Of a stretch of 64,000 nt of DNA, positions 26,392 to 50,710 are shown piece after piece (within the stretch, counting starts at the first letter, position 1; every line of letters begins with the position of its first letter). A program made the translations under genes and the position numbers. The DNA is from Chloranthus sessilifolius (lineage: Eukaryota > Streptophyta > Magnoliopsida > Chloranthales > Chloranthaceae). The stretch spans positions 48,063,811 to 48,127,810 of the forward strand of contig CM037584.1 of assembly GCA_021018995.1 (NCBI GenBank), written 5' to 3'. The notes beneath the pieces were generated by a model. That model was given only the letters and a program-made list of their open reading frames with translations. It did not search any database and was not told where the DNA came from.

Positions 26392-26620
26392 ATTTATTTA
26401 TTTCACCTGCATGAATGAGCAAACGATTGCATTAAAGTAAACATCTAATTTACACTTGAAAATAAAATTTATTTTTTAATTATTGCTATTTTAAAAATAT
26501 TAGATTATATTTTATTAAATTTATTTGATATTATTCTAATTTTTATAAAATTTAGATTACATTTGAATTTTTATTTTATATTATTCTAATTTTTAAAAGA
26601 TTAGATTATATTTTATCAAA

Positions 26621-26850
26621 TTTATTTGATATTATTATAATTTTTGAATATTTATTTGATATTATTATAATTTATGAATGTTTATTTGATATTATTTTAA
26701 TTTATGAATATTTATTTGATATTATTATAATTTATGAATATTTATTTGATATTATTTTAATTTTTGAATATTTATTTGATATTATTTTAATTTATGAATA
26801 TTTATTTGATATTATTATAATTTTTAAAAATTTATTTGAAATTTATTCCA
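26621..26850. repeat. 30-bp tandem repeat, hAT leader region
   Basis: About 7.5 copies of a 30-bp unit starting TTTATTTGATATTATT. Starts are at 26621, 26651, 26681, 26711, 26741, 26771 and 26801, an exact 30-bp step. Upstream of the transposase start. Confidence 0.95.
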
Positions 26851-27240: not shown

Positions 27241-27410
27241 CATTATTTATATTATTTTTAATTAATTTAAATATTTTAAATTATTTTTCCCCTTTTCTTA
27301 ATTTAAATAATTTATTTAACTAATTTAATTATTTTAAATAATTTTAATAATTTTAAATAATTTAAATAATTATAATAATTAATATTATAGGTAAATGATA
27401 AAATTTAAAG

Positions 27411-27609
27411 GTAGATCTACCTAATTTAAGGGTAGATCTACACTTATTTAAGGTAGATCTATACTTATTTAAGGTAGATCTACACTTATTTAAGGTAAAT
27501 CTACACTTATTTAAGGTAGATCTATACTTATTTAAGGTAGATATACACTTATTTAAGGTAGATCTACACTTATTTAAGGTAGATCTACTCTTAAATTAGG
27601 TAGATCTAC
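27411..27609. repeat. Exact 21-bp tandem array with GTAGATCTAC core
   Basis: Ten copies at exactly 21-bp spacing: 27411, 27432, 27453, 27474, 27495, 27516, 27537, 27558, 27579 and 27600. Each holds the palindrome GTAGATCTAC or a one-base variant, separated by ACTTATTTAAG. It lies between the right terminus of the hAT element and its transposase gene, where a promoter or transposase-binding array would be expected. Confidence 0.95.
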
Positions 27610-28030
27610 CTTATTTTAGTATTTAAAATGAAATAAAATGATGGTAAAATGATAAACACGTACCTTCCACGTTGATCTTGTGATTTTTTGTGCGATTTGG
27701 TGCCGATTTAGGGTGCAAATAACCCAAAAATGATAGAGAAAGAAGAGAGGAGGAAAATGGGAAAAAAAAAGGGAAACCCGACCCTTTAGTCGGGTCAAAG
27801 GGTGGGGCCCACCGATAATTTCGTCCTTTTTTTTATTTTATACTTTTAACCAAATTATCGGACGATAATTTAAAATTATCCGATACATATCCTATGTATC
27901 GGACGATAATTTATCTATTTTATATAGGGTACGATACATATTCTATGTATCGTACCGCTGACCTCCAAAACCGATACGTATCGTCCGATACGTATCGGTA
28001 TCGGACGATATTTTAACCCATGGTCTGAAT

Positions 28031-29400: not shown

Positions 29401-29462
29401 ACTGTCAAAAATCATCGAGTCTATTGGCAGCCCTTGATAGGATTTATAAGCGTTGCAGATTT

Positions 29463-30240
29463 TGTTAGAAAAATTGTTTCGGGTTGCAGAAGAAAATAAA
29501 GAGTGAAATAAAAAAATACGCAGATCCGGTTCGAGATACGTTGAATATCACTTTCTTTAAACAGAGATTTGCCCCTACAACTATGATCTAGTGATTACCA
29601 ACAAGTTACCGAAAAATCGATTTCAGGATACAACGAACCGGCAACGTAATCTTGTGATCAGATTTGGTGAATCTGATCACGCAACCAGAACACCTGATAG
29701 CGCTAAAGAACTATGAAACAACGAAGCTTTTAAAAATAGAAAACTAAGAAATGAAATGAAAACGCAGTGAAAACAAATGAAGGTCTCGAACACCTTTTAA
29801 AGAAATCAAAAGGTGTAACTGAACGGACATGTCCGTTTAAAGCAACTAAATAGACATATCCGTTTACAAATGAGCAAATTTAAAATTTGAATAAATTAAA
29901 ACTGCAAAATGCGGTTATTCTTTTGTATAAAAAATTAACTAAATGCACCACACCGCATCGCATCGCATCGTCACGTACACGTGCTCGTGCTCGTGCCCGT
30001 CCCGACCCGACCCAGCTCGGCGCACACGCACGCGCGTGTGTGTGACTGATGGGGTGCATGACGATGGAAGCTACAAAATTCGGTGCCCCTTGGGTGAAGG
30101 CTAAAAGCTTTGAGCCAACACTATGCTATATAATAGCTAACCCTTTTTAAGAGTTACACGATGTGGGACAACTACCACAAGGCAATCTCAAAGATAAAGT
30201 TCTAAAAAAGTCAAGTCTTATATTTTAAAAATATCCAACA
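29463..30240 (-). repeat. Copia LTR 1 (778 bp)
   Basis: The + strand runs TGTTAGAAAAATTG to ATATCCAACA. It holds a variable GC-rich block of CATCG, GTGCTC and CACG repeats (about 29950-30045) that differs from LTR 2. The polypurine tract of the minus element (reverse of ATCCCCCATAATTT) follows at 30241. Confidence 0.85.
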
Positions 30241-33200
30241 ATCCCCCATAATTTAAAATATTCAAAATCCCCCACTATTTTAAAGATATTCAAAAATCCT
30301 TGAAAAAATTGAAACAGAGTAAAAGAAGAAATATGTGCATAAATGAAAATGTCTTACAGACTTGAATTTTCAGGTTAGTGAAAATAATTCAAAGTTTGTC
30401 AAGTTTTTTAGTGAAACTAAGTCTTGAACTAACTATCTTATTTGATAAATCGGAACTATTTCACACACATATGTCATATATTTGGTGTTCAATAAATAAG
30501 GCTAGCAAATTTAGGCCCTATGCTAATATCCTGATTTTCGTAAGTATATGAGATAAAGTCATGTCTCATTAAAAGCGGCTCCAACTTCACATTTATATAG
30601 GTAGACATATAAAAGATGTCCCTATAACTTTAACATTTCAACAAAAAGTGTTATAGGACTATTAAGAGTAATGCTCAACCTCACCTTATCAATTACAGAT
30701 AAAAACACGACCCTTATGGAATGTATATGAGTTTTATTTCTCATCAATGTCCTGTCCTATAGCCGTCACGTATTTACGACTTATTTTTTTCTTTGAACTT
30801 AAAGATAGATGAAACAAATATTAGGTAGGGTTCCCATCATAAGTGGTTGTTTACGTTTACTGGCTTTAAACCCATCCCAATTGAAGTTTTGTAAATTCCA
30901 TCTCTGCTAAGACTTTTAGTAAACGGATCTGTCAGGTTTTTCGCAGACCCGACCCAAATTACTGAGATTATTCCATCTCTAAGTAATTGTTTTAGATAGT
31001 TATGTCTTAGACCAATGTGTCTATTTTTTCTATTATACGTTTGACTATAAGTCTTTGATAGTGTTGCTTCACTATCACAATGCATAGAGATAGATGGCAA
31101 TAGTTTAATCATAATTGAAATTTCGATTAATAAATTTTTTAACCATTCCGCTTATTTTTCAGTTGTCGCTAAGGCAATGAATTTTGATTCCATAGTAAAA
31201 TGTATGATGCAAGTTTACTTTTTTAATCCCCATGAGATCGCAACACCTCCAAAAGTGAATATCCATCCACTTGTGGACTTTGATTCTTCCGAACCAGATA
31301 TCCAACTTGCATCACTATATCCTTCTAACACTTGAGGATATCCAGAAAAATATAAACCGTAATTAATAGTACTTTTTAAATATCTAAAAATATATAAAAT
31401 AACATTCCAATGAACAGAACTAGGATTGCTTGTAAATCTACTTAACTTACTTACGGTAAATGCAATATTCGACTTTGTACATGCATTGTATACATAAGAC
31501 TACCAATAACCCTTGAATATTCTAACTGTTGTACACATCTCCCATCATTTTTAGTTAATTTAAGATTAATATCTAAATGTGTATTGGCAGGTTTCAAATC
31601 AATATAATTAAATCTTTTTAAAATCTTTTCAACATAATGAGATTGAGTTAAATTTAACGCATTCTCATTTCTTATAATTTTGATTCCCAAGATTACATCG
31701 GCCTGTCCCAAGTCTTTCATACTAAAAGATGAACATAAGAAGTTTTTAGTTTCTAAAATAACTTCTAAATTAATTTCAAAAATAAGTAAATCATCTACAT
31801 AAAGATATTATAACATCATGATTATTAGAAAATTTATAATACATACATTTATCTACTTCATTGGTTTTGAAACCAAATTTAATAATTGTATTATCAAACT
31901 TTTTATGTCACTATTTTGATACTTGTTTTAGCCCATATAGAGATTTAATAAGTTTACAAACTTTCTTTTCTTGTCCAGGTAGAACAAATCCTTCTGATTG
32001 TTTCATATAGACCTCTTCTTTTAAATCACCATTTAAGAAAGCAGTTTTAACATCCATTTGATGGATTTGTAATTTATGTATAGAAGCTAAGGCCATTAGA
32101 AGTCTTATGGTCGAAATTCTAACAACGGGTGCGTAGGTGTCAATATAATCAATACCTTCCTTTTGTCTATATCCTTTAGCAACCAATCTTGCTTTAACTT
32201 TTTTTATAGTTCCATCTGTTTTAAATTTTCTTTTAAATATCCATCTACATCCTATGAGTTTAGATCCTTTTGATAAGTCTAATAATTTTCATGTTTTGTT
32301 TCCCATTATTGAATCTATTTCATCATTAATAGTTTCTTTCCAAAAAGCACTAGCTATAGATTTTATGGCATCGTTAAAAATGATAGAATCATCGTCTACA
32401 TTTACACATATATGTTTCTTAATACTTTTGGTCATATTTCCTTCAATCAAATAGATATAATAGTCTTTTGAAAGAATTGACGTTTATTTCGTCGAGGTTC
32501 AATGATGACCTCTTCATCACTTGAAGATTCAATAACTGCTTTAGATTTAGAAGATTCTCCATCTTCATAAGTTTTACTTTCAATATTTAATTTATTAGTT
32601 AGAGTAGTGAACTTAGATTTATAGAATATAGCATCTCTAGATTCTATTATAGTATTTTTATCGATGTTATCATTAGATTTCATAACTAAAAATCTGTAAG
32701 CTTTACTATTTTGTGCATAGCCAACAAATGCACACTCAATAGATCTAAGGCCTATCTTAGGTCTTTTAGGATCTACTAATCTAATAAGTGCCCTACACCC
32801 CCACACTTTAAAATAGGTTAGACTAGGTTTGCGATTCTTCCAAAGTTCATATGGTGTAGTTAATGTTTTCTTATGTAAAATTCTATTCAAAATATGAGTA
32901 GCAGTCAACAAAACTTCACCCCATAAAATTTTATCCAAATTAGCGTTAACTAACATTGCATTAGTCATTTCTACTAATATTCTATTTTTTCTCTCGGCAA
33001 CTCCGTTTTGTTGTGGTGTATAAGGAGCCGTCACCTCATGACAAATTCCATAAATTTCACAGAAATAGAAGAATTCATTTGACACATATTCTCCACCTTG
33101 ATCAGATCTAATGGCTTTTATTCTTTTATTTAATTGATTTTTTACTAAAGCTTTATAAATCTTAAATTTTTCAAAAGCCTCATTTTTAGTATTTAATAAA

Positions 33201-34823
33201 TATATATGAGCATATTTTAAAAAATCATCTATAAAAGTAATACAATATCGTTTTCCTCCTCTAGTAGGAACATTGTTTAAATCACAAATATCACTATGTA
33301 TTAAATCTAATAAACATGAATTTCTAATAACACTAGGCAAAGGTTTCTAGTAATTTTAGTCTTAGCACAAATACTACAAACATTACTAGCAAAAGATTCA
33401 TATTTTGAAATTAAATCTAAGTTAGACATGCATTTCATAGACCTATAATTAGCATGTCCTAATCTATCATGCCATAAATTAGAAAGAGAGACCGAGTAAG
33501 AAGAATGAGAGATTTTATTGATTGAATCAGTTATATTGTATTTAAACATGCCTCCAATGGCATATCCTTTTACAACAAATTCGTCATTCTTGGATAAGAT
33601 AAACTTATCCGATTCAAATACAAATTTAAAATCATGCTTGATTAGTAAACCACCTGATACAAGATTCTTGCAAATGTCAGGTACATGGAGCACATCAGTA
33701 AGTGTCACGACTTTTTCAGATGTGAAATTCAATTTCACTTTTCCACGCCCTATGATCTTTGTCGTAGATAAGTTCCCTATGAAGAGATCTTGATCATCGT
33801 CAGTCTTATCGTACGTCACAAACATATCACGATTATTACAAACATGTTTTGTGGCACTCGTGCCGATCCACCATTCATTGATGTCACCAATCAGATTTAC
33901 TTCCAAAAGAACGGCTATAAAGTTGCATTTTTTTCCACTACATTCGCCTGATTCTTCAACTTCTTGAAGAGGCGACAATCTCGTTTGAAATGTCCGGATT
34001 TCCCACAGTGATAGCAACCACCATTCTTCGGTACCATGGTCTTATTCTCCTTGACAAATTTCTTATTTTCCTTGAAATGAGAATATCCTCTCTTCCGCTT
34101 CTTGGACGGTCCACTGACAACCTTATATTCAACTAAGTGTGCCTTTGATGTCATATCAATGTAATCTTTTGTTTTGTCCCTAACTCGGGATTCTTCCTCA
34201 ATATGTAAATGAAGGAGAAGGTTTTCCATAGAAACCTTCTCATTATTACGTTTAAGTATTTTTTTAGTAATCTTTTCATGATGTAGGTAACTTGACGATT
34301 ACCGCACCAACCAAAAAATTCTCATCGAAATGAAAACCATTAGCAATCATATAATTTATAATTACTTGAAAATCATGCACTTGACTAAGAATTGATTTAT
34401 CATCGACCATCTTAAAATTAAAAAACTGACTGATTATATAAGAATTATACCTTGCGTCTTCAGTTTTGTATTTCTTCTCATGTGCGTCCCAGAGTTCCTT
34501 CGATGTGTTGGAGGCGCAATAGACGTCAAACAATGAATTCGACAATGCATTCAGAATGTAGCCCTTGCAAGTGTAGTCGTCTTCTTCCCATTTCTATTTT
34601 TTTCGGCCTTCATCGAGGGTGAACGATTCGATAACAATCAGACACGGAGTTGTGATAACGTACACAACTTTTAATGTGGTCAACAGAAAAGGCAATTTCT
34701 GCTGCCACCATTTAAAATTCGAACCATCAAAACTGTCCAATTTGTGGATGTTGTTGGGCAGTGCGGGATATAACTTAGTTGCATCAGTAATATGGGCCAT
34801 CAGTATAAATCTCGGTTTAAAAT
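30241..34823 (-). pseudogene. Copia body 1: gag-protease-integrase-RT-RNase H fossil
   Basis: On the minus strand: gag (about 34000-34800; LDSFDGSNFKWWQQKL), CCHC knuckle CYHCGKSGHFKRDC, protease region ending ATKHVCNNRDMF (about 33800), GAG-preintegrase LWHDRLGHANYRS, integrase core (DLIHSDICD; DQGGEYVSNEF; TPQQNGVAERKN; 32447-33340), RT (DYIDTYAPVVR; QMDVKTAFLNGDL; 31451-32186) and RNase H (30837-31330). Lineage Tork-like by wording. Many breaks. Confidence 0.85.
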
Positions 34824-35543
34824 TGTTTGAAAAATGGTTTCGGGTTGCAGAAGAAGATAAAGAGTGGAATGAAAAAATACGCAGATCCGATTCGAGGCAC
34901 GTTGAATATCGCTTCCTTTAAACTGAGATTTGCCCCTACCACTATGATCTAGTGATCACCAACAGGTTACCGGCAAATCGATTTCAGGATACAACGAACC
35001 GACAGCATATTCTTGTGATCAGATTTGGTGAATCTGATCACGCAATCAGAACACCAGATAGCGCTAAAGAACTCTGAAACAACAAAACTTTTAGAAATAG
35101 AAAACTAAGAAATGAAATGAAAACGCAGCGAAACAAATGAAGGTCTCGGGTCCCTTTTATAGAAATCAAAAGGTGTAACTGAACGGACATATCCGTTTAA
35201 AGCAACTGAACGGACATATCCGTTTACAAAGGAGCAAATTTAAAATTTGAATAAATTAAAACTGCAAAATGCGATTATTCTTTTGTGTAAAAAATTAACT
35301 AAATGCACCACACTACACTGCATCGCATCGCATCGCCACGCCACGTACACGTATACGTGCTCGTGCTCGTGCTCATGCCCGTGCCCATACTGCGCCGGCA
35401 CGGCTTGACTCGTGTGAGTGAAGGCTACAAGCCTTAAGCCAACACTACGCTATATAATAGCTAACCCTTTTTAAGAGTTACACGATGTGGGACAATTTCC
35501 ACAAGGCATTCTCAAAGATAAAGTTCTAAAAAAATATCCAACA
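34824..35543 (-). repeat. Copia LTR 2, shared (720 bp)
   Basis: The + strand runs TGTTTGAAAAATGG to ATATCCAACA. It serves as 5' LTR of body 1 and 3' LTR of body 2. The GC-rich block (about 35310-35410) differs in length and wording from LTR 1. Confidence 0.85.
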
Positions 35544-38500
35544 ATCCTCCACAATTTTAAAATATTCAAAATCTCCCACTATTTTAAAGATATTCAAAAA
35601 TCCTTAAAAAAATTAAAACAGAGTAAAGCAAGAAATATGTGCATAAATGAAAATGTGTTACAGACTTGAATTTTCAGGTTAGTAAAAATAATTCAAAGTT
35701 TGTCAAGTTCTTTAGTGAAACTAAGTCTTAAACTAATGATCTTATTTGATAAATCGAAACTATTTCACACACATATTTCACATATTTTGTGTTAAATAAA
35801 GAAGGTTAGCACATTTAGGCCCTATGCTAGTACCCTGGTTTTCGTAAGTGTATGAGATAAAGCCATGTATCATTAAAAGCGACTTCACCTTCACACTTAT
35901 ATAGGTAGACCTATAAGAGATGTCCCTGTAACTTTAACATCTCAACAGAAAGTGTTATAGGACTATTAAGAGCAATGCTCAACCTCACTTTATCCATTAC
36001 AGGTAAAAACACGACCCTTATGGGATGTATATGAGTTTTATTTCTCATCAATGTCCTGCCCTATAGCCGCCACATATTTATGACTTATTTTTCCCTTTGA
36101 ACCTAAAGATTGATGAAACAAATATTAGGTAGGGTTCCCATCATAAGTGGTTGTTTATGTTTACTGGCTTTAAACATCCCAATTAAAGTTTTATAAATTT
36201 CATCTCTTCCAAGACTTTTAGTAAACAGATCCGTCAGATTTTTCGCAGACCTGACCCCAATTACTGAGATTATTCTATCTCTAAGTAATTATTTTACATA
36301 GCTATGTCTTAGACCAATGTGTCTATTTTTTTCATTATACGTTTGACTATAAGCCTTTGATGGTGTTGCTTCACTATCACAATGTATAGAGATAGGTGGC
36401 AGGGGTTTAATTATAATTGAAATTTCAATTAATAAATTTCTTAACCATTCCGCTTCTTTTTCAGTTGCCGCTAAGACAATAAATTCTGATTCTATAGTGG
36501 AATGTGTGATGCAAGCTTGCTTCTTTGATTCTCATGAGATCGCAGCACCTCCAAAAGTGAATATCCATCCACTTGTGGACTTTGATTCTTCCGAACCAGA
36601 TATCTAACTTGCATCATTATATTCTTCTAACACTTGAGGATATCCTAAAAAATGTAAACCGTAATTAATAGTACCTTTTAAACATCTAAAAATATGTGAA
36701 ATAGCATTTTAATGAACAAAACTAGGGTTACTTGTAAATCTACTTAACTTACTTACGTCAAATGCAATGTCCGGCCTTGTACAATGCATTGCATACATAA
36801 TACTACCAATAACCCTTAAATATTCTAAGTGTTGCACACATCTTCGATCATTTTTAGTTAATTTAAGATTAATATCTAAAGGTGTATTGGCAGGTTTCAA
36901 ATCAAAATAATTAAATCTTTTCAACATAATGAGATTGACTTAAAGTTAGCGTATTCTCATTTCTTATAATTTTGATTCCCAAGATTTCATCGGCAAGTTT
37001 TTAGTTTCTAAAATAACTTCTAAATTAGTTCCAAATATAAGTAAATCATCTACATAAAGACATATTATAACACCATGATTATTAAAAAATTTATAATACA
37101 TACACTTATCTGCTTCATTGGTTTTGAAACCAAATTTAATAATTATATTATCAAACTTTTCATGCCACTATTTTGGTGCTTGTTTTAGCCCATATAGAGA
37201 TTTAATAAGTTTACAAACTTTCTTTTCTTGTCCAGGGAAAACAAATCCTTCTAGTTGTTTCATATAAACCTTTTCTTTTAAATCACCATTTAAGAAAGCG
37301 ATTTTAACATCTATTTGATAGATTTGTAATTTATGTATAGAAGTTAAGACAATTAGAAGTCTTATGATCGAAATTCTAGCAACGGGTGCGTAGGTATCAA
37401 AATAATCAATACCTTCTTTTTGTCTATATCCTTTGGCAACCAATCTTACTTTAAATTTTTCTATAGTTTCATCTGTTCTAAGTTTTCTTTTAAATATCCA
37501 TTTACATCCTATGGGTTTAGATCCTTCTGGTAAGTCTATTAATTTTCATGTTTTGTTTCTCATTATTGAATCTATTTCATCATTGATAGCTTCTTTTCAA
37601 AAATGCTATCTCTAGATTTCATGGCATCATTAAAAGTAATAGGATTATCGTCTACATTTAGACATAAATGTTTCTTAATATTTTTTGTCCTATTTCCTTC
37701 AATAAAATAGATATAATAGTCTTTTGAAAGACTAGTTTCAAACCGTTGACGTTTACTTCGTCGAGGTTCAATGATAACTTCTTCATCACTTGAAGATTCA
37801 ATAATTTCTTTATTTTTAGAAGATTCTCCATCTTCATAAGGTTTACTTTCAATATTTAATTTATTAGTTAGAGTAGTGAACTTAGATTCATAAAATATAG
37901 CATCTCTAGATTCTATTATAGTATTTTCATCAATGTCATCATTAGATTTCATAACTAAAAATCTGTAAGCTTTACTATTTTGTGCATAGCCAACAAATGC
38001 ACTTTCAATAGATCTAAGGCTTATCTTAGGTCTTTTAGGATCTACTAATCTAATAAGTATCCTACACCTCCATACTTTAAAATAGGTTAGACTAAGTTTG
38101 CGATTCTTCCAAAGTTCATATGGTGTAGTTAATGTTTTCTTATGTGGAATTCTATTCAAAATATGAGTAGCAGTCAACAAAGCTTCACCCCATAAATATT
38201 TATCGGAATTAGCATTAACTAACATTGCATTAGTCATTTCTACTAATGTTCTATTTTTTCTTTCGGCAACTCCGTTTTATTGTAGTGTATAAGGAGCTGT
38301 CACCTCATGACAAATTTCATGAATTTCACATAAATCGGAGAATTCATTTAACATTTATTCTCCACCTCGATCAAATCTAATGGCTTTTATTCTTTTATTT
38401 AATTGATTTTCTACTAAAGCTTTGTAAACCTTAAATTTTTCAAAAACCTTATTTTTAGTATTTAATAAATATATATGAGCATATTTTGAAAAATCATCTA

Positions 38501-40039
38501 TAAAAGTAATAAAATATCTTTTTTCTCCTCTTAGTAGGAACATTATTTAAATCACAAATATCACTAACATGAATTTCTAATAACACTAGGAAAATATTTT
38601 CTAATCATTTTAGTCTTAGCACAGATACTACAAACACTACTAGCAAAAGATTCATGTTTTGGAATTAAATCTAAGTTAGACATGCATTTCATAGATCTAT
38701 AATAAGCATGTCCTAATCTATCATGCCATAAATTAGAAAGAGAGACCGAGTAAGAAGAATGAGAGATTTTATCGATTGAATTAGTTACATTGAGTTTGAA
38801 CATGCCTCCCATGGCACATCCTTTTCCAACAAATTCGTCATTCTTGGATAAGATAAACTTATCCGATTTAAATACAAGTTTGAAACCATGCTTGATTAGT
38901 AAACCACCCAATACAAGATTCTTGCAAATGTCGGGTACATGAAGCACATCAGTAAGCGTCACGACTTATAATCTTTGCCGTAGATGAGTTCCCCATGAAG
39001 AGATCTTGATCATCGTCAGCCTTATCGTACGTCACAAACTTGTCACGATTATTACAAGTATGTTTTGTGACACCCGTGTCGATCTACCATTTATTGATGT
39101 CACCAATCAGATTTACCTCCAAAAGAACAGCTACAAAGTTACATTTTTCTTCCACTGCATTCGCCTGATTCTTCAGCTTCTTGAAGAGGCGACAATCCTG
39201 TTTGAAATGTCTGGGTTTCTCACAGTGATAGCAACCACCATTCTTCGGTACCATGGTCTTGTTCTCCTTGGTGAATTTCTTATTCTCCTTGATATGAGAA
39301 TATCCTCTTTTCCTCTTCTTGGACAGTCCACTGACAACCTATGATTCAATCAAGTGTGTCTTTGATGTCATATCAATGTGATCTTCTGTTTTGTCCCTAA
39401 CTCGGGATTCTTCCTCAATACGTAAATGAAGGAGAAGATCTTTCATAGAAACCTTCTCATTATTATGTTTAAGGATTTTTCGGTAATCTTTTCATGATAG
39501 AGGCAACTTGGCAATTACCGCACCAACTAGAAAATTCTCATCGAAATGAGAACCATTAGCAATCATATAATTTATAATTACTTGAAAATCATGCACTTGG
39601 CTAAGAATCGATTTATCATCGATCATCTTAAAATTAAAAAACTGACTGATTATATAAGAATTATACCCTGCATCTTCAGTTTTATATTTCTTCTCAAGTG
39701 CATTCCAGAGTTCCTTCGATGTGTTGTAGGCGTGGTAGACGTCAAACAACGAATCCAACAATGCATTCAGAATGTAGCCCTTGCAAGTATAGTCGTCTTC
39801 TTTCCATTTCTATTTTTTTCGAACCTCACCGAGGGTGGACGATTCAATAACAATCGAACACGGAGTTGTGATAACGTACACAACTTTTAACGTAGTCAAC
39901 AGAAAATTCAGTTTCTACTGCCACCGTTTAAAATTCGAACCATCAAAACTGTCCAACTTGTGGATGTTGTTGGGTAGTGCGGGATATAACTTAGTTGCAT
40001 CAGTAATCTGGGCCATCAGAATAAATCTCAGTTTGAAAT
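35544..40039 (-). pseudogene. Copia body 2: gag-protease-integrase-RT-RNase H fossil
   Basis: Same order as body 1: gag (39400-40010), protease (about 39000-39130), GAG-preintegrase (38564-38962), integrase (37572-38540), RT (36709-37443) and RNase H (36100-36700). Very close to body 1 along its whole length. Many breaks. Confidence 0.85.
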
Positions 40040-40329
40040 TGTTAGAAAAATGGTTTCGGGTTGCAAAAGAAGATAAAGAGTGGAATGAAAAAATACGCAG
40101 ATCCGGTTCGAGGCACGTTGAATATCGCTTTCTTTAAATTGAGATTTGCCCCTACCACTATGATCTAATAATCACCAATATGTTACCGACAAATCGGTTT
40201 CAGAATACAAAGAATCGGCAACATATTTTTGTGATCAGATTTGGTGAATCTGATCACGCAACCAGAACACCAGATAACACTAAAAAACTCTAAAACAATG
40301 AAGCTTTTAGAAATAGAAAACTAAGAAAT
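40040..40329 (-). repeat. Copia LTR 3, partial
   Basis: The + strand begins TGTTAGAAAAATGG as in LTR 1. About 290 of some 720-780 bp remain before the chromovirus LTR starts. The missing part is not seen on the far side of that element. Confidence 0.85.
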
Positions 40330-42841
40330 TGTGACAGCCCGAATTTCGGCACTCCGAAACCCGTGCCATCAGCACGATCATCTTGACCGTGCCCCTTAGC
40401 TAAGCACGGAACATTGGCATATCAAGCATAAAATGAAATAATAAATGAGCTGCGGAATTTAAATCTATATTAAGTAATTCTCCAAAAGACAGTTCTACCC
40501 TCATGCCTCTGCATGAATGGAGAACCGACCCGAACCATCGATGATAGCAATCATCACGGATGGTTCGCACCAACAGAATAATCTCAAACTCAATATATAC
40601 ATGGTTTAACCAAACAAGGCTTGACATACCAAGCCGTACAAATCTCTCTCAAAAAGCCCTCAAAGTGGCACAACGGAGTCCTCTAGAAGATGTCCTCAGG
40701 AGGTGGCTCCAACTCGTCGCCGGCCGCAAGGTCCGACTCATCGGGGTCAGCGTCTCCTGAAGCCTCGACCGCTGCTAGTAGTGGACCTGCGACGTATAGT
40801 CTATAGGGTGAGCTACATCCTAGCTCAATAGGGAACAAACACGGTTGAACATATAAATTATAACTCACATATATTCCATGATATGCCATGCATGAAGTAT
40901 CTATGCAGTTATTAATGAAACAGTTAAAAAGCATTTCGTTTTACTGTTGATTACTTGTATTTTCATTTACTCATGAATGATGCTGAAAAGGCCTAAAGCA
41001 AAACTTAAACTTTCAACTTAAGTAATCCCCGAGCAATATAGCATCGAGCCCCAATGAAATACCCTTCATCGTCATCTATATAGACACTTTTAACGTATTC
41101 CCTGGGAATACAATATAGTACCCAAGCCCCTTTCCCCTGGGGATTGGTGGCGGGGTTTCACTTGTCTCAAATCAACACCCCTGGGGTGTGCTTACTATGT
41201 GTGGATAAGCCTCCGCACTGGCTTACGGTTTCGCCGCCGTATCGGTCACGGATATCCTGCCGTGTCAGTCGTGGATATCTCGCCACGTCGGTGGGGTACC
41301 CTATCAAACCTCAAATAACAAAAATATCGGTGCCTTACATATAGTTATTCACCGTGTAAGTGTGCTATCTTATATCAGTTAGGCCCTATCAAACATGATT
41401 CAATCTTGGATACATCCCTGGGATGTATCCATTCACTTGCATCACACCTGATGCCCTTATCTCTTTATTTTTCTCATCCCCTGGGGATGGTTCATTATGT
41501 TTACTCTTATGGATGTCACACACACACACTTTTCATAATTCTTAAGCAATAAAAGCAAATTGAATTGAATTCTATATCACTACATACATGCTCTTGTAAA
41601 ATAAAGTACATGTTCAAGGTGTTCCCTACCTCAAGTCTTTGTTTGCTCAACGCATCAAGGTCCCACGTGGCTCCTTGTACACTAGCTCACACGTACCACC
41701 AATGGTACCACATAACAGGTGAAACACATCACTAAAGATGCAATAAAGGAGGTCCAAGACCCTCCATGAAGCTTAAAGTCAAACTCAAAAGTCAATAAAA
41801 TTTAGCACAGTCGATTAACCAAACTCCAAAATCGATTAATCGAATCTAATTTGATTAATCGATTTCCAAAATCGATTAATCGAAAATCAATATCGATTAA
41901 TCGATTCTCAAATCGATTAATCGAGATTCCCATTCGATTAATCGAAACCCAATTCGATTAATCGAAATTCTCCACTCTATCTGTCGATTCTCAATTCGAG
42001 TAATCGAATTTCTAAATCGATTAATCGAATTCCCATTTCAATTACTCGATTTCTCCAATCTATTTTCTTTCCTCCACTGGAGTTCACTGTAGGCTCCCAG
42101 TCGATCAATCGATTTCCAATTCGATTAATCGAAATCTAAAGTCGATTAATCAAAATTCAATTCGATTAATCGAGATCGGGGTCCTCTGACTTTTCAACTT
42201 CTTAGCCAATTTCGATTAATCGAAACCCCATTTCGATTAATCGAAATTGCCAGATTCAGCCCCTTTCGAGCTGTTCTTCCCAATCTTTTTTCACTCTTTT
42301 TCCTCTATTTTTCTAAATCATCATCCTACAATCTAAACCAATTTTCAACTAAAATTAACCTCTACAATCTATGCATTTTATTCACAAAAATTTACCTTTA
42401 ATCAATCTCAAATTGATTTCAAATCAAGTGGTTGAAAGGCTAGGGTTCCAGCTTTGGCTTGAGCAGTTCCTTCATGAGAATCGGCCTCTTTAATACTTGA
42501 ATCCCCCTTCCAATCACCCACAATAACTCCTTGCTTGATCACTCTCTTTACTCCTCTCTCTCTCTTCTTTACTTCTCTCTCAACAACCAAACTATTGATT
42601 TTAGGGTTATTAAACCCTTTTATCTCCCCCCTTAGCTTGTGTGTTGAGCACATGCACCTCAATAGGTGTATGTGACCTTAGATTTATAACACACACCACA
42701 TAGCCACACAATTTATCACATCTTATCCGTTCATCACACCTCATGCTAACCATTAGACTTCTATTTGGTCAAACCTATGACTGATCAGGCATGGATCCCT
42801 AGGTCACAGTTTAGCGTGATTTTTTTTTTTCGGCTATTACA
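40330..42841 (-). repeat. Chromovirus 3' LTR (2512 bp)
   Basis: The + strand begins TGTGACAGCCCGAATTTCGG and ends GGCTATTACA. A TATA-like ATAAAAGG lies near 42615 on the minus strand. The palindrome array at 41811-42244 is then some 350 bp inside the transcript. Also contains (CACA)n near 41520. Confidence 0.85.
41811..42244. repeat. Phased TCGATTAATCGA palindrome array in LTR
   Basis: Seventeen copies, eleven exact. Starts at 41811, 41832, 41851, 41872, 41893, 41913, 41934, 41954, 41996, 42017, 42038, 42101, 42121, 42142, 42162, 42212 and 42233. Steps are 19-21 bp; two gaps are 42 and 63 bp, exact multiples of 21, and one is 50. Confidence 0.95.
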
Positions 42842-43115: not shown

Positions 43116-44630
43116 TCAGGCAGTCCCCTCGCCAGGCTGGTCGGGTGCTACAGGAGCTGGTGGGTCTGCTGGAGCTGGCTGTGGCTGCGGTGGTAGCGGC
43201 GGCTGTGGTGGAAGCGTCTCAGTCGGCGGAGCGGATGTGGATGTGGAAGGAGCCGCGTCTGTAGTGGCTGTGGTAGGATGGAAGACGGGTCCTCGGTGGA
43301 AGGCTGTGCGTCCGGCTGTCCACTCCTCCTCCTGGGCGAGGTAGCGGCGGTAGTCTGTGGGGTAGATGTGGCGGAGGGTATGGAATAGAAGGAAGTCCAT
43401 CCTCCGGTTCATCCTTTCATTGTTGGCCTCCATACGGGCCAACACCTCCTCGATGGTCGGCCCTGCTGAAACGGCACGCCGGCGGTAGGATGAGGTGGGT
43501 GTAGCGGGCGCAGAGTGGGCTGGCGATGTCTGTGAGGCTGCTGTGTGAGAGGTGGCCCTCTCCACTGAAGGCTCGGCTGCAGCAGGGTGTGCCCTACCCA
43601 CGGGTGGGTCCTGCTGTGGTGGTGGGGGTGGCGGTGGTGCTACTGCCGGCCAAGGCGATCGAGCGGACCCGAGCCTGTGAGGGTCCGCTACATGGAAAAT
43701 GTCTTCACGCAGTCCGTAGCCCTCACCTCGTGAGGAGAGACGGCGTAGGATGGGTCGTTGGAGTAGCACTCCAACATGCTCGATATAAGGCGAGCGTAAG
43801 GCATCTTTTCCTTGGGCCGGAGGTTGCCCTTCATGAGCTTGCCCTTGATATACCTCATCCCCTCTAGGATGAGCATGGTGGCATCAAACCACCGGCCACA
43901 GAAGGCCGAGTAAAGTGCTTGTTGCACCTTTTCCACGCGCTCAGTGTCGTGGCGCATCGGGTATAGATTGCACTTGACCACCGAGTCAAGCATCCACATA
44001 TAGTGGGGAAGGTCAACCCTCTTTATGGAGGAGCCCGACCCCTTTTTACCATTTGTCATGCGGGTCATGACCTCCTCGAAGCGAGGTTCCTCCTCGAAGG
44101 GTGGGAATAGGGTGGTCTCAGGGGTAAAGTCGAGGTAGCACTCAAGCACCTCGTGTATGTGACGACGAGTGATCGTGTAGTCTCGACCCTCTATGGTGGT
44201 CTTGATCACATCGTTGGTGGTCGGGCTTGGTAGAATAATCTCACCAATCTAGGGTAGTAAGAACCCCGGATTGGTTTGAGAAGGTCGCCAAGACCGGCGT
44301 TATTGAGATAGTTTCGAGCCCATTGGGTCTCGCCCGGTACATCGGGATTTGTGAATAGGGTTGGGTCAATGACGTATTCGACCTTGAAGGTCTTGGCCGC
44401 CCACCATTCATTTTGTTGTACCACATTAGTGGGTGGTGGGGGCATTGGGGTCGATTCGCCGGAAGACTCGCGCATAGATGCTCTCGTCGAACCGGAGGTG
44501 GTCTCCGATGCCGACGGTGATGGAGTCCTCACCGGCGATGGGGTAGGTGGTGGTGGCGCGGCGTTCTTACGCCGAACTGGGAGTTTAGAAGTCGCCTTCT
44601 TTTAAGACAACCTAGTCTTGGGTGGCATTT
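43116..44630 (-). pseudogene. Extra sense ORF region, 'putative plant transposon protein'-like
   Basis: Sense-oriented with pol and placed where env would lie. It starts with a basic, Pro/Ser-rich stretch (44206-44630). A middle domain (about 43690-44480; WARNYLNNAGLGDLLKPIRG, YYPRLVRLFYQA, DYTITRRHIHEVLECYLDF) resembles the plant domain named 'putative plant transposon protein' that accompanies many gypsy elements. The end is Pro/Ala/Gln-rich with MNRRMDFLLFHTLRHIYP. No membrane segment or signal peptide, so not a classic envelope. Role unknown. Distinctly GC-richer than its surroundings. Broken, with a few breaks. Confidence 0.6.
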
Positions 44631-44864
44631 TGACGAAGGTTTCGGTAAAACTAGGGTTTTCGACTTGAAATTGAAGACATACGCGAGCCTAGGGTTTACC
44701 TTAGGTTTCGGAGGCGAATGCGGATGCGAATCGACGGAAATCCAAACCCTAGACCACACGGTTGGTTGGAGAAGAAGGAGGAGAAGAAACGCCCAAATAG
44801 CCGAAAGCCCAAATGATTTCGAATGGGAATTAAAATCCCCAATTTTCAATATATAGGCCTCGGC

Positions 44865-45492
44865 TCGATTAATCGAAATCCAGAATCGATTAATCGAGAT
44901 TTCAAACTAGGTTAAGCCGCATAAAATCGATTAATCGATTTCCCAAATCGATTAATCGAAACTCAAATTCGATTAATCAAAACCATTTCGATTAATCGAA
45001 ATCGTATCTGTTTAAATTTTTAAGTTTTTGAGCTCACTGGCGCGAGCCAGTCGATTAATCGAAATCCATTTTGATTAATCGAAATTTCAAAATCGATTAA
45101 TCGAAATTTACTTCGATTAATCGAAATCGTGCAGTAAGTTCCAAAATTTTCAGGATTCTTTAAGTTATTCGATTAATCGAATTCCACTTCGATTAATCGA
45201 AATCGTTCCTCTGACTTCATATTTCTTCCAAGTCCCTTTAGTAATTCGATCAATCGAACTTCCAGTTCGATTAATCGAAATCCCAAATCGATTAATCGAA
45301 TTTCCAAAATCGATTAATCGATCCCAAATCGATTAATCGAAATTATAACTCGATCAATCGAAATTGCATTCTATGTCTGTTCTAACTCTTTTTCAAATTT
45401 CCAGTCACTGGCAGGTGCCAGTCGACCAATCGAACAAAATCGATTAATCGAAATTCCAAATCGATTAATCGATTTGAAATTCGATTAATCGA
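44865..45492. repeat. Phased TCGATTAATCGA palindrome array, internal
   Basis: Twenty-two copies, seventeen exact. Runs at about 21-bp steps: 44865, 44886, 44927, 44948, 44969, 44988, 45051, 45071, 45093, 45113, 45169, 45189, 45246, 45267, 45288, 45310, 45329, 45350, 45422, 45440, 45461 and 45481. The 41- and 63-bp gaps are near-multiples of 21. Lies between the end of pol and the extra ORF. Confidence 0.95.
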
Positions 45493-45705: not shown

Positions 45706-46735
45706 TCACGTCGTTGGAAACAAGGCTGGATATTGTTCCTTCACATCGGCCTCTCGTTCCCAAGTAGCCTCTTCTTTTGGATGATTGTTCCACCGAACAA
45801 GCACTAAGGGAATCACTTTAGTGCGCAGTACTTGTTCCTTTCGATTCAAGATTTCCACAGGTTCCTCTATCGTGCTCATGTCCTCACACATCTTCATAGA
45901 TTGTTTTCCTAACACATGAGACGGATCATTCACATACTTTTTGAGCATCGATATGTGGAAAACGTTATGTACTCGATCAAACAGCGGTGGTAAACCAATG
46001 CGATACGCAACTTCACCTACACGTCCCAAAATTTCAAATGGTCCAACATAACGTGGGCTTAACTTCTCTCTCTTGCCAAATCTCATTACGCCTTTCATAG
46101 GTGACACTTTCACAAACACGTGCTCACCCACTTTATAGTCGACACTAGTCCGCTTCATGTCAGCGTAACTTTTCTGTCTACTCATCTTGACTTGACCGAT
46201 AATTCAACAATCTGGGTGATGGTTTTCAAGTAGTTTTGGCCCCAACACAAATTTCAATTGCTTTTCCCAATTGAGGGGTGATTTGCATCGTCGTCCATAC
46301 AGAGCTTCATATGGTGCCATGCCAATGCTCGTTTGGAAACTGTTGTTGTATGCGAATTCGAGCAACGGTAGATACTCGTCCCAGTACCCCTGCATATCTA
46401 GCATGCACGCTCTGAGCATGTCTTCTATTACTTGGTTCACTCGCTCTGTCTGCCCATCAGTTTGAGGATGGAAAGCTGAACTAAAGTCTAGTCGTGTTCT
46501 CATTCCTTCTTGAAATTTCTTCCAAAACTTGGATGTATATAGTGGATCACGATCTGAAACTATGCTGCTTGGAATCCCATGTAATCTTACAATCTCCTTC
46601 ATGTATAAGCCTGTCAGTCTTCCTGTTGTATACGTAGTATTGTATGGCAAAAAGTGCGCTGATTTGGTCAATCGGTCAATGACAATCCAAATGGCATTGT
46701 GTCTCTTGGCAGTACGGGGCAATCCAAAATTATTA
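45706..46735 (-). pseudogene. Chromovirus integrase end and chromodomain
   Basis: Integrase core part (46204-46722): DRLTKSAHFLPYNTTYT, IVSDRDPLYTSKFW, FHPQTDGQTERVNQVIEDM and YGRRCKSPLNW. C-terminal part (45706-46185): VKVSPMKGVMRFGKREKLSP and HNVFHISMLKKYV. It ends in a chromodomain-like PVEILNRKEQVLRTKVIPLV..W..H..EEATWERE. The chromodomain directs integration to marked chromatin. Tekay/Del wording. A few breaks; fossil. Confidence 0.85.
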
Positions 46736-48825
46736 ATTAATTGATTTATCTTTAAAGCTCATCTAACCGACTCAGGAAACTTTGTGTGACTGGTTCTCCA
46801 TCATAGCGTACCTACTCGACCCCACATACGTTAGTGTAAAATTTACCTCTCATGACTTGTTTTCATCAACTATTAGCCATGTAAATTGGAAACGTCTTGT
46901 GTTTTATCTAATTTCTAAAGTGTGTTTCAAAGTAATTAATTCTTATTAATAGTAAAGGTGTCGGCAGGTACGAAGGCAAAAACTTTTATGAGAGGGGGCC
47001 AAATTATAAACATATTAGTATATATGCTGCTTTGATAAAGAGTATTTTGGAAACTCAAAATTTGGTAAAAACTGTCATAAAAGGGCTGCGGCGGTGCTCT
47101 TATGGTAAGTGACATTGTTTTTATTTTTTATTTTTTATTTTAAGTTTAATTTAGGCTAGCCAATTTTGCAACTGAAGATTCTTGCGACACAACTGATAGT
47201 TCGCATCGTTGATTACCTTGAATAAGAGGATAGAGGTCATTTTTGGTTATATCTTTCACAATTTAGATTTTCATATCATGGCCCACATATCATATGGTTA
47301 GATGTTGATTTCAGTTGGCACGCATCTGTTATTATGCTGCATCATGTTAGGCATGATCACAATCACTATAGGGATGTGCGCCACATGTAAGCGACAGCTG
47401 ACCGTCTGATATTTTAATCATCTGATTCAAGGCAGTCCATGGTGTGAATTGTGAAACCATCAGTTGCGAAATCTTTGATTGCAAAACTTGCTACCCTTAA
47501 TTTAAAGGGTAGAAAAGTATCGTTAAATAGGATAGGAATCAACATCTACCTTCTGATCCGATAGTTGTCTGCAAGATCATGTATTTCAATGCAGTCAACC
47601 GATTATTCCTTTGTTTTAGTGAAGTGAGTGTAACATAAATTAGTGTTAGAGTAATAATTATGTTCGGAGCATATTCAAAGATTTAAAGTGATGGACCGAC
47701 AATAAGGGTAGCTTTTGAAATAATTATAAACATAAAAGTTAGATTTATAAATCAAAATAATAGCATGGGATAAGAAGGATGTGAAAAAGAAGTAAAAAAT
47801 ATGAATCGGTCATCAAGAATTGTGGCGCATCCTACGTTTTAAGAGAACAAAAATTGTGGTCAGGGTCATAGCCCATGTGAGCCCTCCCCTGGCTCCATCC
47901 ACATCGGAGACTTATATGGTTGCTGTTAGTTTTAAAAAGCATTAACTACTTTGAATCACATCACAAAAATGTTCTTTCTTTTTAATCCTTTACACCATCC
48001 ATCTTTAAATCATGGTATTAATATCAAACGTCACACATTTTATTTCCAAGTAATACTTATCCCTGAAAGGAACCTGTGAACCAAGTTACCTGGTAATTGG
48101 AGCGCATACCTAATGCCATACTCTTTCACTAGAACTCGCCAAGTTAAAGGAGGTCAAAGAAACCGACGGTTGGAATGCATTTATTTAATTATACACCGAA
48201 AATTATAAAGGCATGACAGATTTGTTGAGGATAAAATGCAAGCAGTTAACGTGATGCAACATAATTGACTGCACCGATCTGCATTAATTGAGTCGCATTA
48301 CACTTGCAACTAAATGCATCGGGCATAATCATAAAGATTAGTTTTGGCTGCGTTTGATTTAGCTCTTTCGGGATAAAAAGCAGCTCTTTACCTCTTTAGA
48401 TCTGCTTTTTACCTTCTCTCTCTCAGAACAGATTTTATCAGTTGTGAAGGATAGCTAGTGGGAGCTGCATCTGCTCTTATAGCCAGAGCTAACCCAAATA
48501 CAGTCTTCTACCATCGAAGGGGAGAGGTTGAATCTTTGATCTAGTGGCTCCAAACTCCTAAGTCCTAACGCAAACAAATCTCTACGATATTTGCTTAGTT
48601 GACCGTGATACAAAATCGCATCTATGTCTTGTTCGTTTTAAATAGCCTTGGTTTCCCCTAATGTGATTGACTGTGAGTCTGTGATGAAATCACTGATATC
48701 TGTATACAGGGAAAATCTCCTTTTTTTTTTTTTTTTTTTTCTGAGAAATTTTCCTTTTAACTCTTTTTTTTTTTTGAAAAATTTTCTTTTTAACTTAATC
48801 TTAATAAATGAATGAATATATATAT
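46736..48825. other. Anonymous spacer with a decayed foldback repeat
   Basis: No gene recognised over about 2.1 kb. 47240-47480 shares arm wording with the foldback MITEs (ATCTTTCACAATTTAGATTTT, CACATATCATATGG) but ends are lost. A poly-T run lies at 48720-48740. Confidence 0.45.
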
Positions 48826-50710
48826 ATTAAAGAGTTTTAAAAACTTTTGATTTATTATATGTTACTGACAAACTTGTAAAAATCACTTTCTAAAGAAGTG
48901 TTTTTTCATATTGAATTTATCTCTTCACCATAAATCTTAAGAGACACAAGTGTAGCATCTCTTTATTCTCTTACCATTATGTGAAAAGACCCAACTCTCT
49001 GAAAAGATACAAATATGAAATCTTTTTATCGTAATCTGAAAGCACATAATAATTGAAAATTTTCTCTATAAATAGAAATAAGATCTCTGTTAAAAAAAAA
49101 AAAAAAAAAGACACAAGAAAATAAGAATTTTTTTTTTTTTTTTTTTTTTTTTAACGGAGATCTTATCTTTATTTATAAATACAGAAAATCTCCAACTATT
49201 GTGTCTTTTCAGATTACGGTGAAAAGATCTCAAATTTGTGTCTTTTCAGAGAGTTGTTTCTTTTCACGGTAAAAAGAAATTGTTTCACTTGTGTCTTTTC
49301 AGATTTATGGTGAAGAGATACTAGACTTGTGTCTCTTAAGATTTAGGGTAAAGAGATAAATCCAAATCTGAAAAAACACTTCGTTAGAAAATGATTTTTA
49401 CAAATTTGTCATCTACATATAATAAATCAAGAAAGAAAGTTTTTTAAAACTCTTTAAAATATACAACAATTTTTTTCTAAACGTTACTTTGCGACATGGA
49501 AGCATCTATAGGTTACTTTGTGATTGGAACGATTTGATGGAACAAACTTTACCGGTTGGCAGCACAAGATTTTGTTCTTCCTCACGACCTTGCATGTTGC
49601 ATATATTTTAGACAAAGATCTTGCTGACTTACCACCTGCAAAATTAGACGACACTCCGGAGGTCATTACTGCGCGAAAGAAAGGTAATGATGATGATTAC
49701 ATATGCAAGGGTCATATATTGAACACGCTTACGAATTCTATTTACAATATCTACGTTAGCGTGCCTACGGTAAAAGAAATCTTGTATGCACTTGACTAGA
49801 AATATATACAGAGTAGAAGAATCTGGAAATCATATTTTATTTATTGGTAATTTATTTGATTTTAAGATAAAAAATGATAAGTCTATTCTAGCGCAAGTGT
49901 ACTACTTGCAAGTTATCATTAATCATCTTAGTTATGTTGGGATTAAACTTTCTGAGGAATTTCAAGTTGGCATTATAATTTTTAAATTACGGCTTTCTTG
50001 GAATAACTATAAAAAGAAGATGAATCATCGACAAGAGAATGAATCTTTGTCTATGCCTCAACTTTTACGTCATCTACGAATTGAGGAAGAACCAAGACTT
50101 CATTATTCTAAAGATGATAAAAGAGTTTATCCTAAGGAAAATTTGGTCAGAAACATTAAATCAAATGATTTTAAACCAAATAAAAACTTGAAGTCAAATA
50201 AGAATAAAAATCAATTCAAGAGAAAACCCACTGCTGATCAAAATGACGAGGACAAATCCAAAAAGAAAGAAAGAAATTCTTATTTTCTTGTGTCTTTTTT
50301 TTTTTTTTTTTAACGGGGATCTTATCTCTATTTATAGAGAAAATCTCCAACTATTGTGTCTTTTCAGATTATGGTAAAAAGATTTTATATTTGTACCTTT
50401 TTAGAGAGTTGTGTCTTTTCACATAACGGTAAAAAGATAAATCGATTCACTTGTGTCTTTTAAGAGAGTTGTATCTTTTCACATAACCGTAAAAAAAAAT
50501 CAATTCAGTTATGTCTTTTCAGATTCATAGTAAAAAGATGCTAGACTTGTGTCTCTTAAGATTTACAGTGAAAAAACACTTCTTTAGAAAATGATTTTTA
50601 CAAGTTTGCCATTAACATATAATAAATCAAGAAATTTTTTTTTTTAAAACTCTTTAAAATATACAACAATCTCCCACTATTTTAAAAGTTTTAAAAATAT
50701 ACAGTATATA
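48826..50710. mobile_element. Rearranged copia remnant with three LTR-like repeats
   Basis: Three copies of one LTR-like repeat: 48826-49105 (one orientation), 49150-49471 and 50312-50674 (opposite orientation). The first two form an imperfect palindrome with arms of about 300 bp and A/T-run centres. A copia gag fragment (49524-50290) lies between the second and third, in the opposite sense to its flanking repeats. After 50674 comes ATCTCCCACT, the reversed polypurine tract seen in the copia at 52736. Broken fossil. Confidence 0.6.
49524..50290 (+). pseudogene. Copia gag fragment
   Basis: MERFDGTNFTGWQHKILFFL is the start of a copia gag (UBN2-type), followed by YICKGHILNTLTNSIYNIYV and a Lys/Asn-rich stretch (PRLHYSKDDKRVYPKENLV) before the usual CCHC position. 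Gag forms the particle. Few breaks. Confidence 0.7.

Follow-up and report, generated by a model that had tools for sequence, protein, structure and literature searches.

Fixed-pitch palindrome arrays in the LTRs and upstream of the extra open reading frame of a Chloranthus sessilifolius chromovirus: possible sites for an element-encoded protein

Arrays of the palindrome TCGATTAATCGA recur at two places in a group of Ty3/gypsy chromoviruses of Chloranthus sessilifolius, inside the long terminal repeat (LTR) and upstream of an extra open reading frame (ORF), with a conserved core and a pitch of about 21 bp, and a different palindrome with this pitch precedes PF20167 ORFs of some other elements. 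Comparison of these sequences suggests, with about an even chance of being correct, that a cooperative DNA-binding protein recognizes the arrays as multimerised dimer sites and is most likely the PF20167-type protein of the element itself, in a VANC-like role. From these observations we infer binding itself, the identity of the binder, and an effect on transcription or methylation. The stretch of DNA analyzed, referred to here as the window, comprises 64,000 nucleotides (C1:48063811-48127810) of the 2.17-Gb genome.

Scanning the whole window for TCGATTAATCGA with at most two mismatches yields 56 matches, whereas 100 dinucleotide shuffles average 4.58 and never exceed 10. Array C (44865-45492, minus strand) contains 22 palindromes within this threshold, 17 of them exact, in agreement with the count in the initial annotation; the placement of the array between pol and the extra ORF of a chromovirus is likewise borne out, with the chromodomain end of pol at 45706-46203 (minus strand) on one side and the extra ORF downstream. 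Arrays B (41811-42244, minus strand, 17 palindromes) and A (8590-8876, minus strand, 11 non-overlapping palindromes), absent from that annotation, are both inside LTRs, at LTR positions 598-1031 and 605-891, respectively. All three arrays are inside LTR retrotransposons in minus orientation. Words related to those in the gaps of array C recur in a gap of array B, indicating that the LTR and internal arrays, gaps included, have a common ancestry. Short inverted repeats (ACTGGC...GCCAGT) are found in two gaps of array C, at 45029-45054 and 45402-45425.

Element 1 is arranged in the order pol, array C, TATA box, leader, extra ORF, purine tract, and LTR B. Its truncated pol end (45706-46758, minus strand) encodes a chromodomain and a Tf2-1-like SH3 domain within 45706-46203 (Chromo, SH3_Tf2-1), and the chromodomain match (PF00385, E 9.7e-06, 25.9 bits against a cut-off of 25.1) identifies it as a plant Ty3/gypsy chromovirus. 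A candidate internal-promoter TATA box (44850-44855, minus strand) is located 9 nt past the last palindrome of array C, and the leader between this box and the ATG at 44628-44626 contains TTCTTCTCC and AGGGTTT words. The extra ORF (43116-44628, minus strand) has the sense of pol and is disrupted in the window by stops and frame changes. LTR B (40330-42841, minus strand, 2,512 bp), the 3' LTR of element 1, reads TGTAATAG...TGTCACA on the minus strand and contains a candidate TATA box (GATAAAAGGG, 42615-42624, minus strand) that is similar across 16 aligned LTRs and, read in sense, precedes array B by about 370 bp. LTR A (7121-9480, minus strand) is the 5' LTR of a related element 2 and adjoins a PBS-like TTGGTATCAGAGC, beyond which gag/protease fragments (zinc knuckle and protease) are found. 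A purine tract by LTR B and a PBS-like sequence by LTR A accompany the LTRs, the PBS evidence coming from element 2; element 1 is truncated and its own PBS lies outside the view. LTRs A and B are 68-71% identical, with the arrays at the matching LTR place. Elsewhere in the window, two tandem Ty1/copia-type copies, 88% alike over 5.6 kb, adjoin the chromovirus LTR (29462-40329) and have a common terminal repeat of about 290 bp (29462-29752, 34823-35113, and 40039-40329). Adjoining a copia terminal repeat is a 27-30-bp tandem repeat (35169-35237) whose unit contains AACGGACATATCCGTT, a palindrome that resembles in its half-sites ACGGACGTCCGT, which is described below for other elements. A cluster of repeats, 66-150 bp long and both direct and inverted, occupies 48821-50670, and short satellites with units of 30 bp and 21 bp are found at 26605-26843 and 27403-27616.

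Exact pairs of the form TCGATTAATCGA-N{5,11}-TCGATTAATCGA number 110,363 genome-wide, and the reversed pattern gives 0. Copies were sampled in 14 stretches, 10 kb each, surrounding the clusters that came first in the list, a non-random sample entirely within the first 2.9 Mb of C1. These stretches contain 17 clusters of at least three sites, 14 of which are in LTRs of the window chromovirus group at the matching place, one of which is a homologue of array C (L022, 369-865), and two of which are in an unrelated element (L032). Viral contigs searched with the TCGATTAATCGA pair gave 0 matches; bacterial and archaeal contigs gave three loci with 2-3 exact TCGATTAATCGA sites each.

Across 18 arrays, 208 of 276 steps measure 19-22 bp, and the distances between all pairs of sites peak at about 20-21, 41, 62, 83, 104, and 125 bp; the peak near 21 bp, proposed in the initial annotation as a sign of a binding platform, is therefore present in other copies. 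Within array C the pitch of 19-22 bp described there is confirmed, but the gaps are not confined to 41 and 63 bp: five long gaps measure 41, 63, 56, 57, and 72 bp, and one step is 18 bp. The accompanying claim that the gaps keep the helical phase was not supported. Although long gaps of 41-43, 50-53, 63-65, and 71-72 bp are near whole turns, those of 55-57 bp are off, and the 56- and 57-bp gaps of array C miss the phase by nearly half a turn if a turn is taken as 10.3 bp. Relative to jittered gaps, the phase of the long gaps gives P = 0.28 for array C, 0.49 for A, and 0.07 for B. A pooled test is significant, with 0 of 1000 jittered sets matching, but the gaps are common by descent, and distinct gap lengths exhibit little phase (mean cosine 0.15-0.21). 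The idea that phase is kept over every gap was dropped on the basis of the value for array C and the inherited gaps underlying the pooled test.

For 16 LTR arrays (those of the 14 loci together with window arrays A and B), the divergence of core and spacer was compared over 120 pairs. Core, spacer, and flank diverge by 0.052, 0.146, and 0.116, respectively, in the 30 closest pairs, and by 0.068, 0.221, and 0.195 in the other 90. Calling sites by similarity favors the core. In a multiple alignment that took in 60-bp flanks, sites were called more loosely, with 3 mismatches allowed in either sequence, and the values are 0.055 for non-CpG core, 0.134 for CpG core, 0.297 for spacer, and 0.334 for flank. 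The non-CpG core of the 16 arrays is thus about five-fold less diverged than the spacer, in contrast to the equal divergence that would indicate passive tandem duplication. CpG transitions make up the majority of core changes, as expected for methylated dead copies, with outer changes occupying 29 alignment columns and inner ones 14 (p = 0.03). Arrays of different copies differ by whole blocks, which indicates that unequal exchange supplies array copies while something keeps the core.

The putative internal promoter recurs with array C. Junctions consisting of a site, N9, and TATATA number 1,226 + 1,212 = 2,438 genome-wide at the 9-nt distance covered by the count, and reversed controls give 0. 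In six of six fetched junctions, 16-22 sites come before the TATA box and extra-ORF-like sequence comes after it; the TATA box is present by choice of pattern, and the array and ORF are independent of the pattern. The array C homologue in L022, located without the junction pattern, likewise has 9 nt from last site to TATA box. In a copy without the array (L020), a deletion joins pol to the start of the ORF, which is open there over 492 aa. The dN/dS values of the extra ORF, 0.12 (186 codons), 0.19 (282 codons), and 0.07 (156 codons, saturated dS), show that it is under purifying selection. Scores against PF20167 (Transposase_32) are 22.5 bits for the window piece, 29.3 for L020, 27.6 for L022, and 29.9 for L039; none reaches the curated cut-off of 45, and the ORF is therefore designated PF20167-like. 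DUF1985 and DUF287 are absent among Pfam matches with E <= 1 for L020 and L022 and E <= 10 for the window pieces. The 186-aa window piece returned 19 candidates in a protein search, none with E <= 0.001, the L020 ORF had 0 matches among PDB sequences, and a structure model of the 186-aa piece was unusable (pLDDT 42.9).

The motif had been expected to be confined to the family of the window chromovirus, but no fewer than two further kinds of element contain its class, represented by TCGATNNATCGA. One of these (L032 and L039, C1:2880001-2898000), which we take to be Athila/Tat-like, has gag, reverse transcriptase, and integrase domains, with no chromodomain among the tested frames. The two stretches contain 10 and 18 TCGATNNATCGA sites with at most one mismatch (shuffle means 0.08 and 0.32), of which 4 and 6 have the next site 19-23 bp on, compared with 0.16 and 0.19, maximum 3, for random placement; the spacers of these pairs are unrelated. 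Such sites are found ahead of a TATA box close to the 5' end, in the interval that separates integrase from a PF20167-like ORF (E 6.1e-07, below cut-off), and past that ORF. The second kind comprises short-LTR elements (L040-L042), one with a chromodomain, in which sites precede a TATA-like word and no extra ORF is seen within 3 kb. Genome-wide, TCGATCNATCGA pairs number 9,607 + 9,441 on the two strands, self-complementary pairs being counted twice, with 0 in the control. Among 70 distinct places listed, with steps of 17-23 bp permitted, the step is 21 bp in 44, 22 bp in 15, 20 bp in 6, and 17-19 bp in 5. Spacers of 42 of the 44 step-21 places (two repeats omitted) comprise 34 distinct sequences, with a mean identity of 0.43 versus 0.36 at random. 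The two central bases vary between elements (CG, CA, GA) and the TCGAT and ATCGA half-sites are constant, contrary to the earlier suggestion of a homeodomain-type factor recognizing a TAAT core.

Some PF20167 ORFs of other elements are preceded by other palindromes. A first look at the genome gave 13,856 PF20167 candidates, and all 150 scored exceed the cut-off; 0 of 14 control genomes contain PF20167. Eight of the 150 loci were examined over about 2.2 kb each, reaching upstream. TCGATNNATCGA with at most one mismatch is found in 0 of the 8, and a different 12-bp palindrome, ACGGACGTCCGT, is found in 5, with 7 sites in L044, 9 in L045, 9 in L046, 7 in L048, and 9 in L050 (at most two mismatches; shuffle means at most 0.07). 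Steps between these sites measure 20-22 bp in 16 of 36 cases and 40-42 bp in 7 of 36; the five loci may be one family by descent. The array and PF20167 ORF of L046, to which the Ty1/copia assignment applies among the five, come after a Ty1/copia pol (RVT_2, 4.9e-54, in L051). No TATA box was seen directly after the arrays of L044 and L046. At L049 (C9:44345232-44347431), an ORF above the curated PF20167 cut-off is downstream of 9 CCTCGCGAGG sites with at most two mismatches and irregular steps (shuffle mean 0.70), and the remaining two loci, L043 and L047, have no repeated palindrome. A stricter count, an exact 8-bp palindrome occurring at least four times, is positive in 5 of 8 loci (L044, L045, L046, L049, and L050) versus 4 of 66 control tiles. 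One of the four positive tiles borders window array A, one is satellite-like (TAGATCTA), and the other two are L028 and L029, whose palindromes, TCAATCGATTGA, mean that the control tiles are not a clean background. TCAATCGATTGA, a further 12-bp palindrome with steps partly of 22-25 bp (L028 7241-8755, L029 2808-3334), is possibly one more family-specific array. Palindromes of 12 bp that are unrelated in sequence thus have a common pitch and a common place before related ORFs.

These findings are consistent with a mechanism in which TCGAT-NN-ATCGA sites, with a TA center here, would bring neighboring dimers into contact at a distance of about two helix turns. The arrays would mark the two transcription units of the element, LTR and internal promoter, the TATA box 9 nt past the last site would drive the extra ORF, and the PF20167-type protein, comparable to VANC in VANDAL, would be a sequence-specific activator or anti-silencer of both its own promoter and the LTR. 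The conservation of the core, the 19-22-bp steps, the N9-TATATA junctions, and the dN/dS values of the ORF support binding by the protein of the element, as do the combination of palindrome pairs with a PF20167-like ORF in the Athila/Tat-like element and the presence of ACGGACGTCCGT upstream of five of eight PF20167 loci, one of them behind a Ty1/copia pol. The same reading is weakened by the motif in short-LTR elements without the extra ORF, by the PF20167 loci with no palindrome (L043, L047) or irregular steps (L049), by the LTR arrays of the window element group, which follow the candidate TATA box instead of preceding it, and by the lack of a TATA box right behind the ACGGACGTCCGT arrays of L044 and L046. 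To our knowledge no DNA-binding fold is known for PF20167, which also counts against it.

A host transcription factor dimer cooperating over two turns is the main alternative, though a less likely one, in which unrelated retrotransposons would have recruited the sites as LTR or internal-promoter enhancers. Half-sites and 21-bp pairing are common to the chromovirus group, the Athila/Tat-like element, and the short-LTR chromovirus-type elements, the sites are upstream of a TATA box in the short-LTR elements and just upstream of one in the Athila/Tat-like LTR, and the unrelated spacers point to repeated recruitment; the absence of an extra ORF in the short-LTR elements keeps this explanation alive. 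Nevertheless, other PF20167 elements have a different palindrome at equal pitch and place, for which a protein family of changing specificity is the easier explanation, and we know of no host factor for TCGATNNATCGA. The protein of the element itself is therefore preferred, owing to the unrelated palindromes with common pitch and place before related ORFs.

That the arrays are functionless tandem repeats grown by unequal exchange, as in many retrotransposon 3' regions, is improbable. Whole-block differences between copies agree with such growth, and tandem repeats of no known function are described as common in retrotransposons in the cited part of one report (PMC11963269), but the core is far less diverged than spacer and flank, the same pitch is seen where the spacers are unrelated and where the palindrome is, and the place before a TATA box recurs. 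The protein-binding platform of the initial annotation is thus favored over passive satellite growth by the peak near 21 bp in copies and the inequality of core and spacer, and its binder may belong to the element or to the host. Pairing of neighboring sites in the transcript as 12-bp hairpins, for packaging, dimerisation, or dsRNA, is more improbable still. Sense transcripts of the three window arrays do fold into strings of hairpins, as would those of any palindrome array, and the window alone has 13 wobble-keeping changes versus 5 mirror changes (counted by eye). However, if the hairpin in the sense RNA mattered, changes that keep G-U pairing (C>T, A>G) should exceed their mirror changes, and over 286 sites in 18 arrays the excess is gone (51 versus 63), so an RNA function was dropped. 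Least probable is that A/T-rich steps every ~10 bp position nucleosomes or bend the DNA, an idea that fits the pitch and the A/T-rich center and spacer of TCGATTAATCGA arrays but neither the elements that keep half-sites and 21-bp pitch despite CG, CA, or GA centers and G/C-rich spacers nor ACGGACGTCCGT, which lacks an A/T center.

The closest known parallel to the preferred reading, binding by the protein of the element itself, is found in Arabidopsis VANDAL MULEs, whose VANC proteins bind short motifs in family-specific tandem repeats and remove silencing, according to the sections cited (PMC5735166, PMC10398659). In both cases an element with an extra protein carries short family-specific motifs multimerised in its non-coding regions, and the repeats are quickly gained and lost between copies. 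VANDAL elements, however, are DNA transposons, their VANC domains are reported to be DUF1985 and DUF287 rather than PF20167, their motifs are not described as palindromes and a fixed pitch is not mentioned in those sections, and binding and demethylation have been demonstrated there and are putative for the chromovirus system of the window. Extra ORFs between pol and the 3' LTR are also described, in the portions cited, for maize Grande, whose gene23 has its own promoter, and for Retand, which has tandem repeats (PMC7264820, PMC11963269). Their ORFs are antisense, with domain TRP28 (PF04195) in Retand, in contrast to the sense, PF20167-like ORF of the window, and the repeats of the window chromovirus are palindromes that also occur inside the LTR. 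Drosophila gypsy is likewise a retroelement in which one DNA-binding protein, Su(Hw), has about a dozen sites, in the untranslated region; the binder here is putative. Su(Hw) is a host zinc-finger protein, its sites are non-palindromic, and gypsy is an animal element. A fixed-pitch palindrome array tied to an extra ORF was not found in a limited check of parts of the literature on VANC, Grande, and Retand, and among the papers searched TCGATTAATCGA appears in one, on Vibrio, and CGATTAATCG with 'plant' in one, on eDNA.

That plant LTR retrotransposons carry extra ORFs is old knowledge, with no function attached to them. The pairing of PF20167 ORFs, one widespread kind, with palindrome arrays of fixed geometry offers a directly testable idea of a binding target, and by it retrotransposons would appear to operate protein-target pairs in the manner of the VANC system of DNA transposons. 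More tentatively, at somewhat less than an even chance, PF20167-type proteins of Ty1/copia and Ty3/gypsy elements may be self-encoded regulators that bind family-specific 12-bp palindromes, multimerised at a two-turn pitch before their own gene and inside the LTR. Retrotransposons would then have an equivalent of VANC whose geometry is fixed and whose specificity can change, and gene-less elements may exploit it in trans. If instead a host factor binds, several retrotransposon lineages would have this regulator in common, and these lineages supply >100,000 site pairs in the genome.
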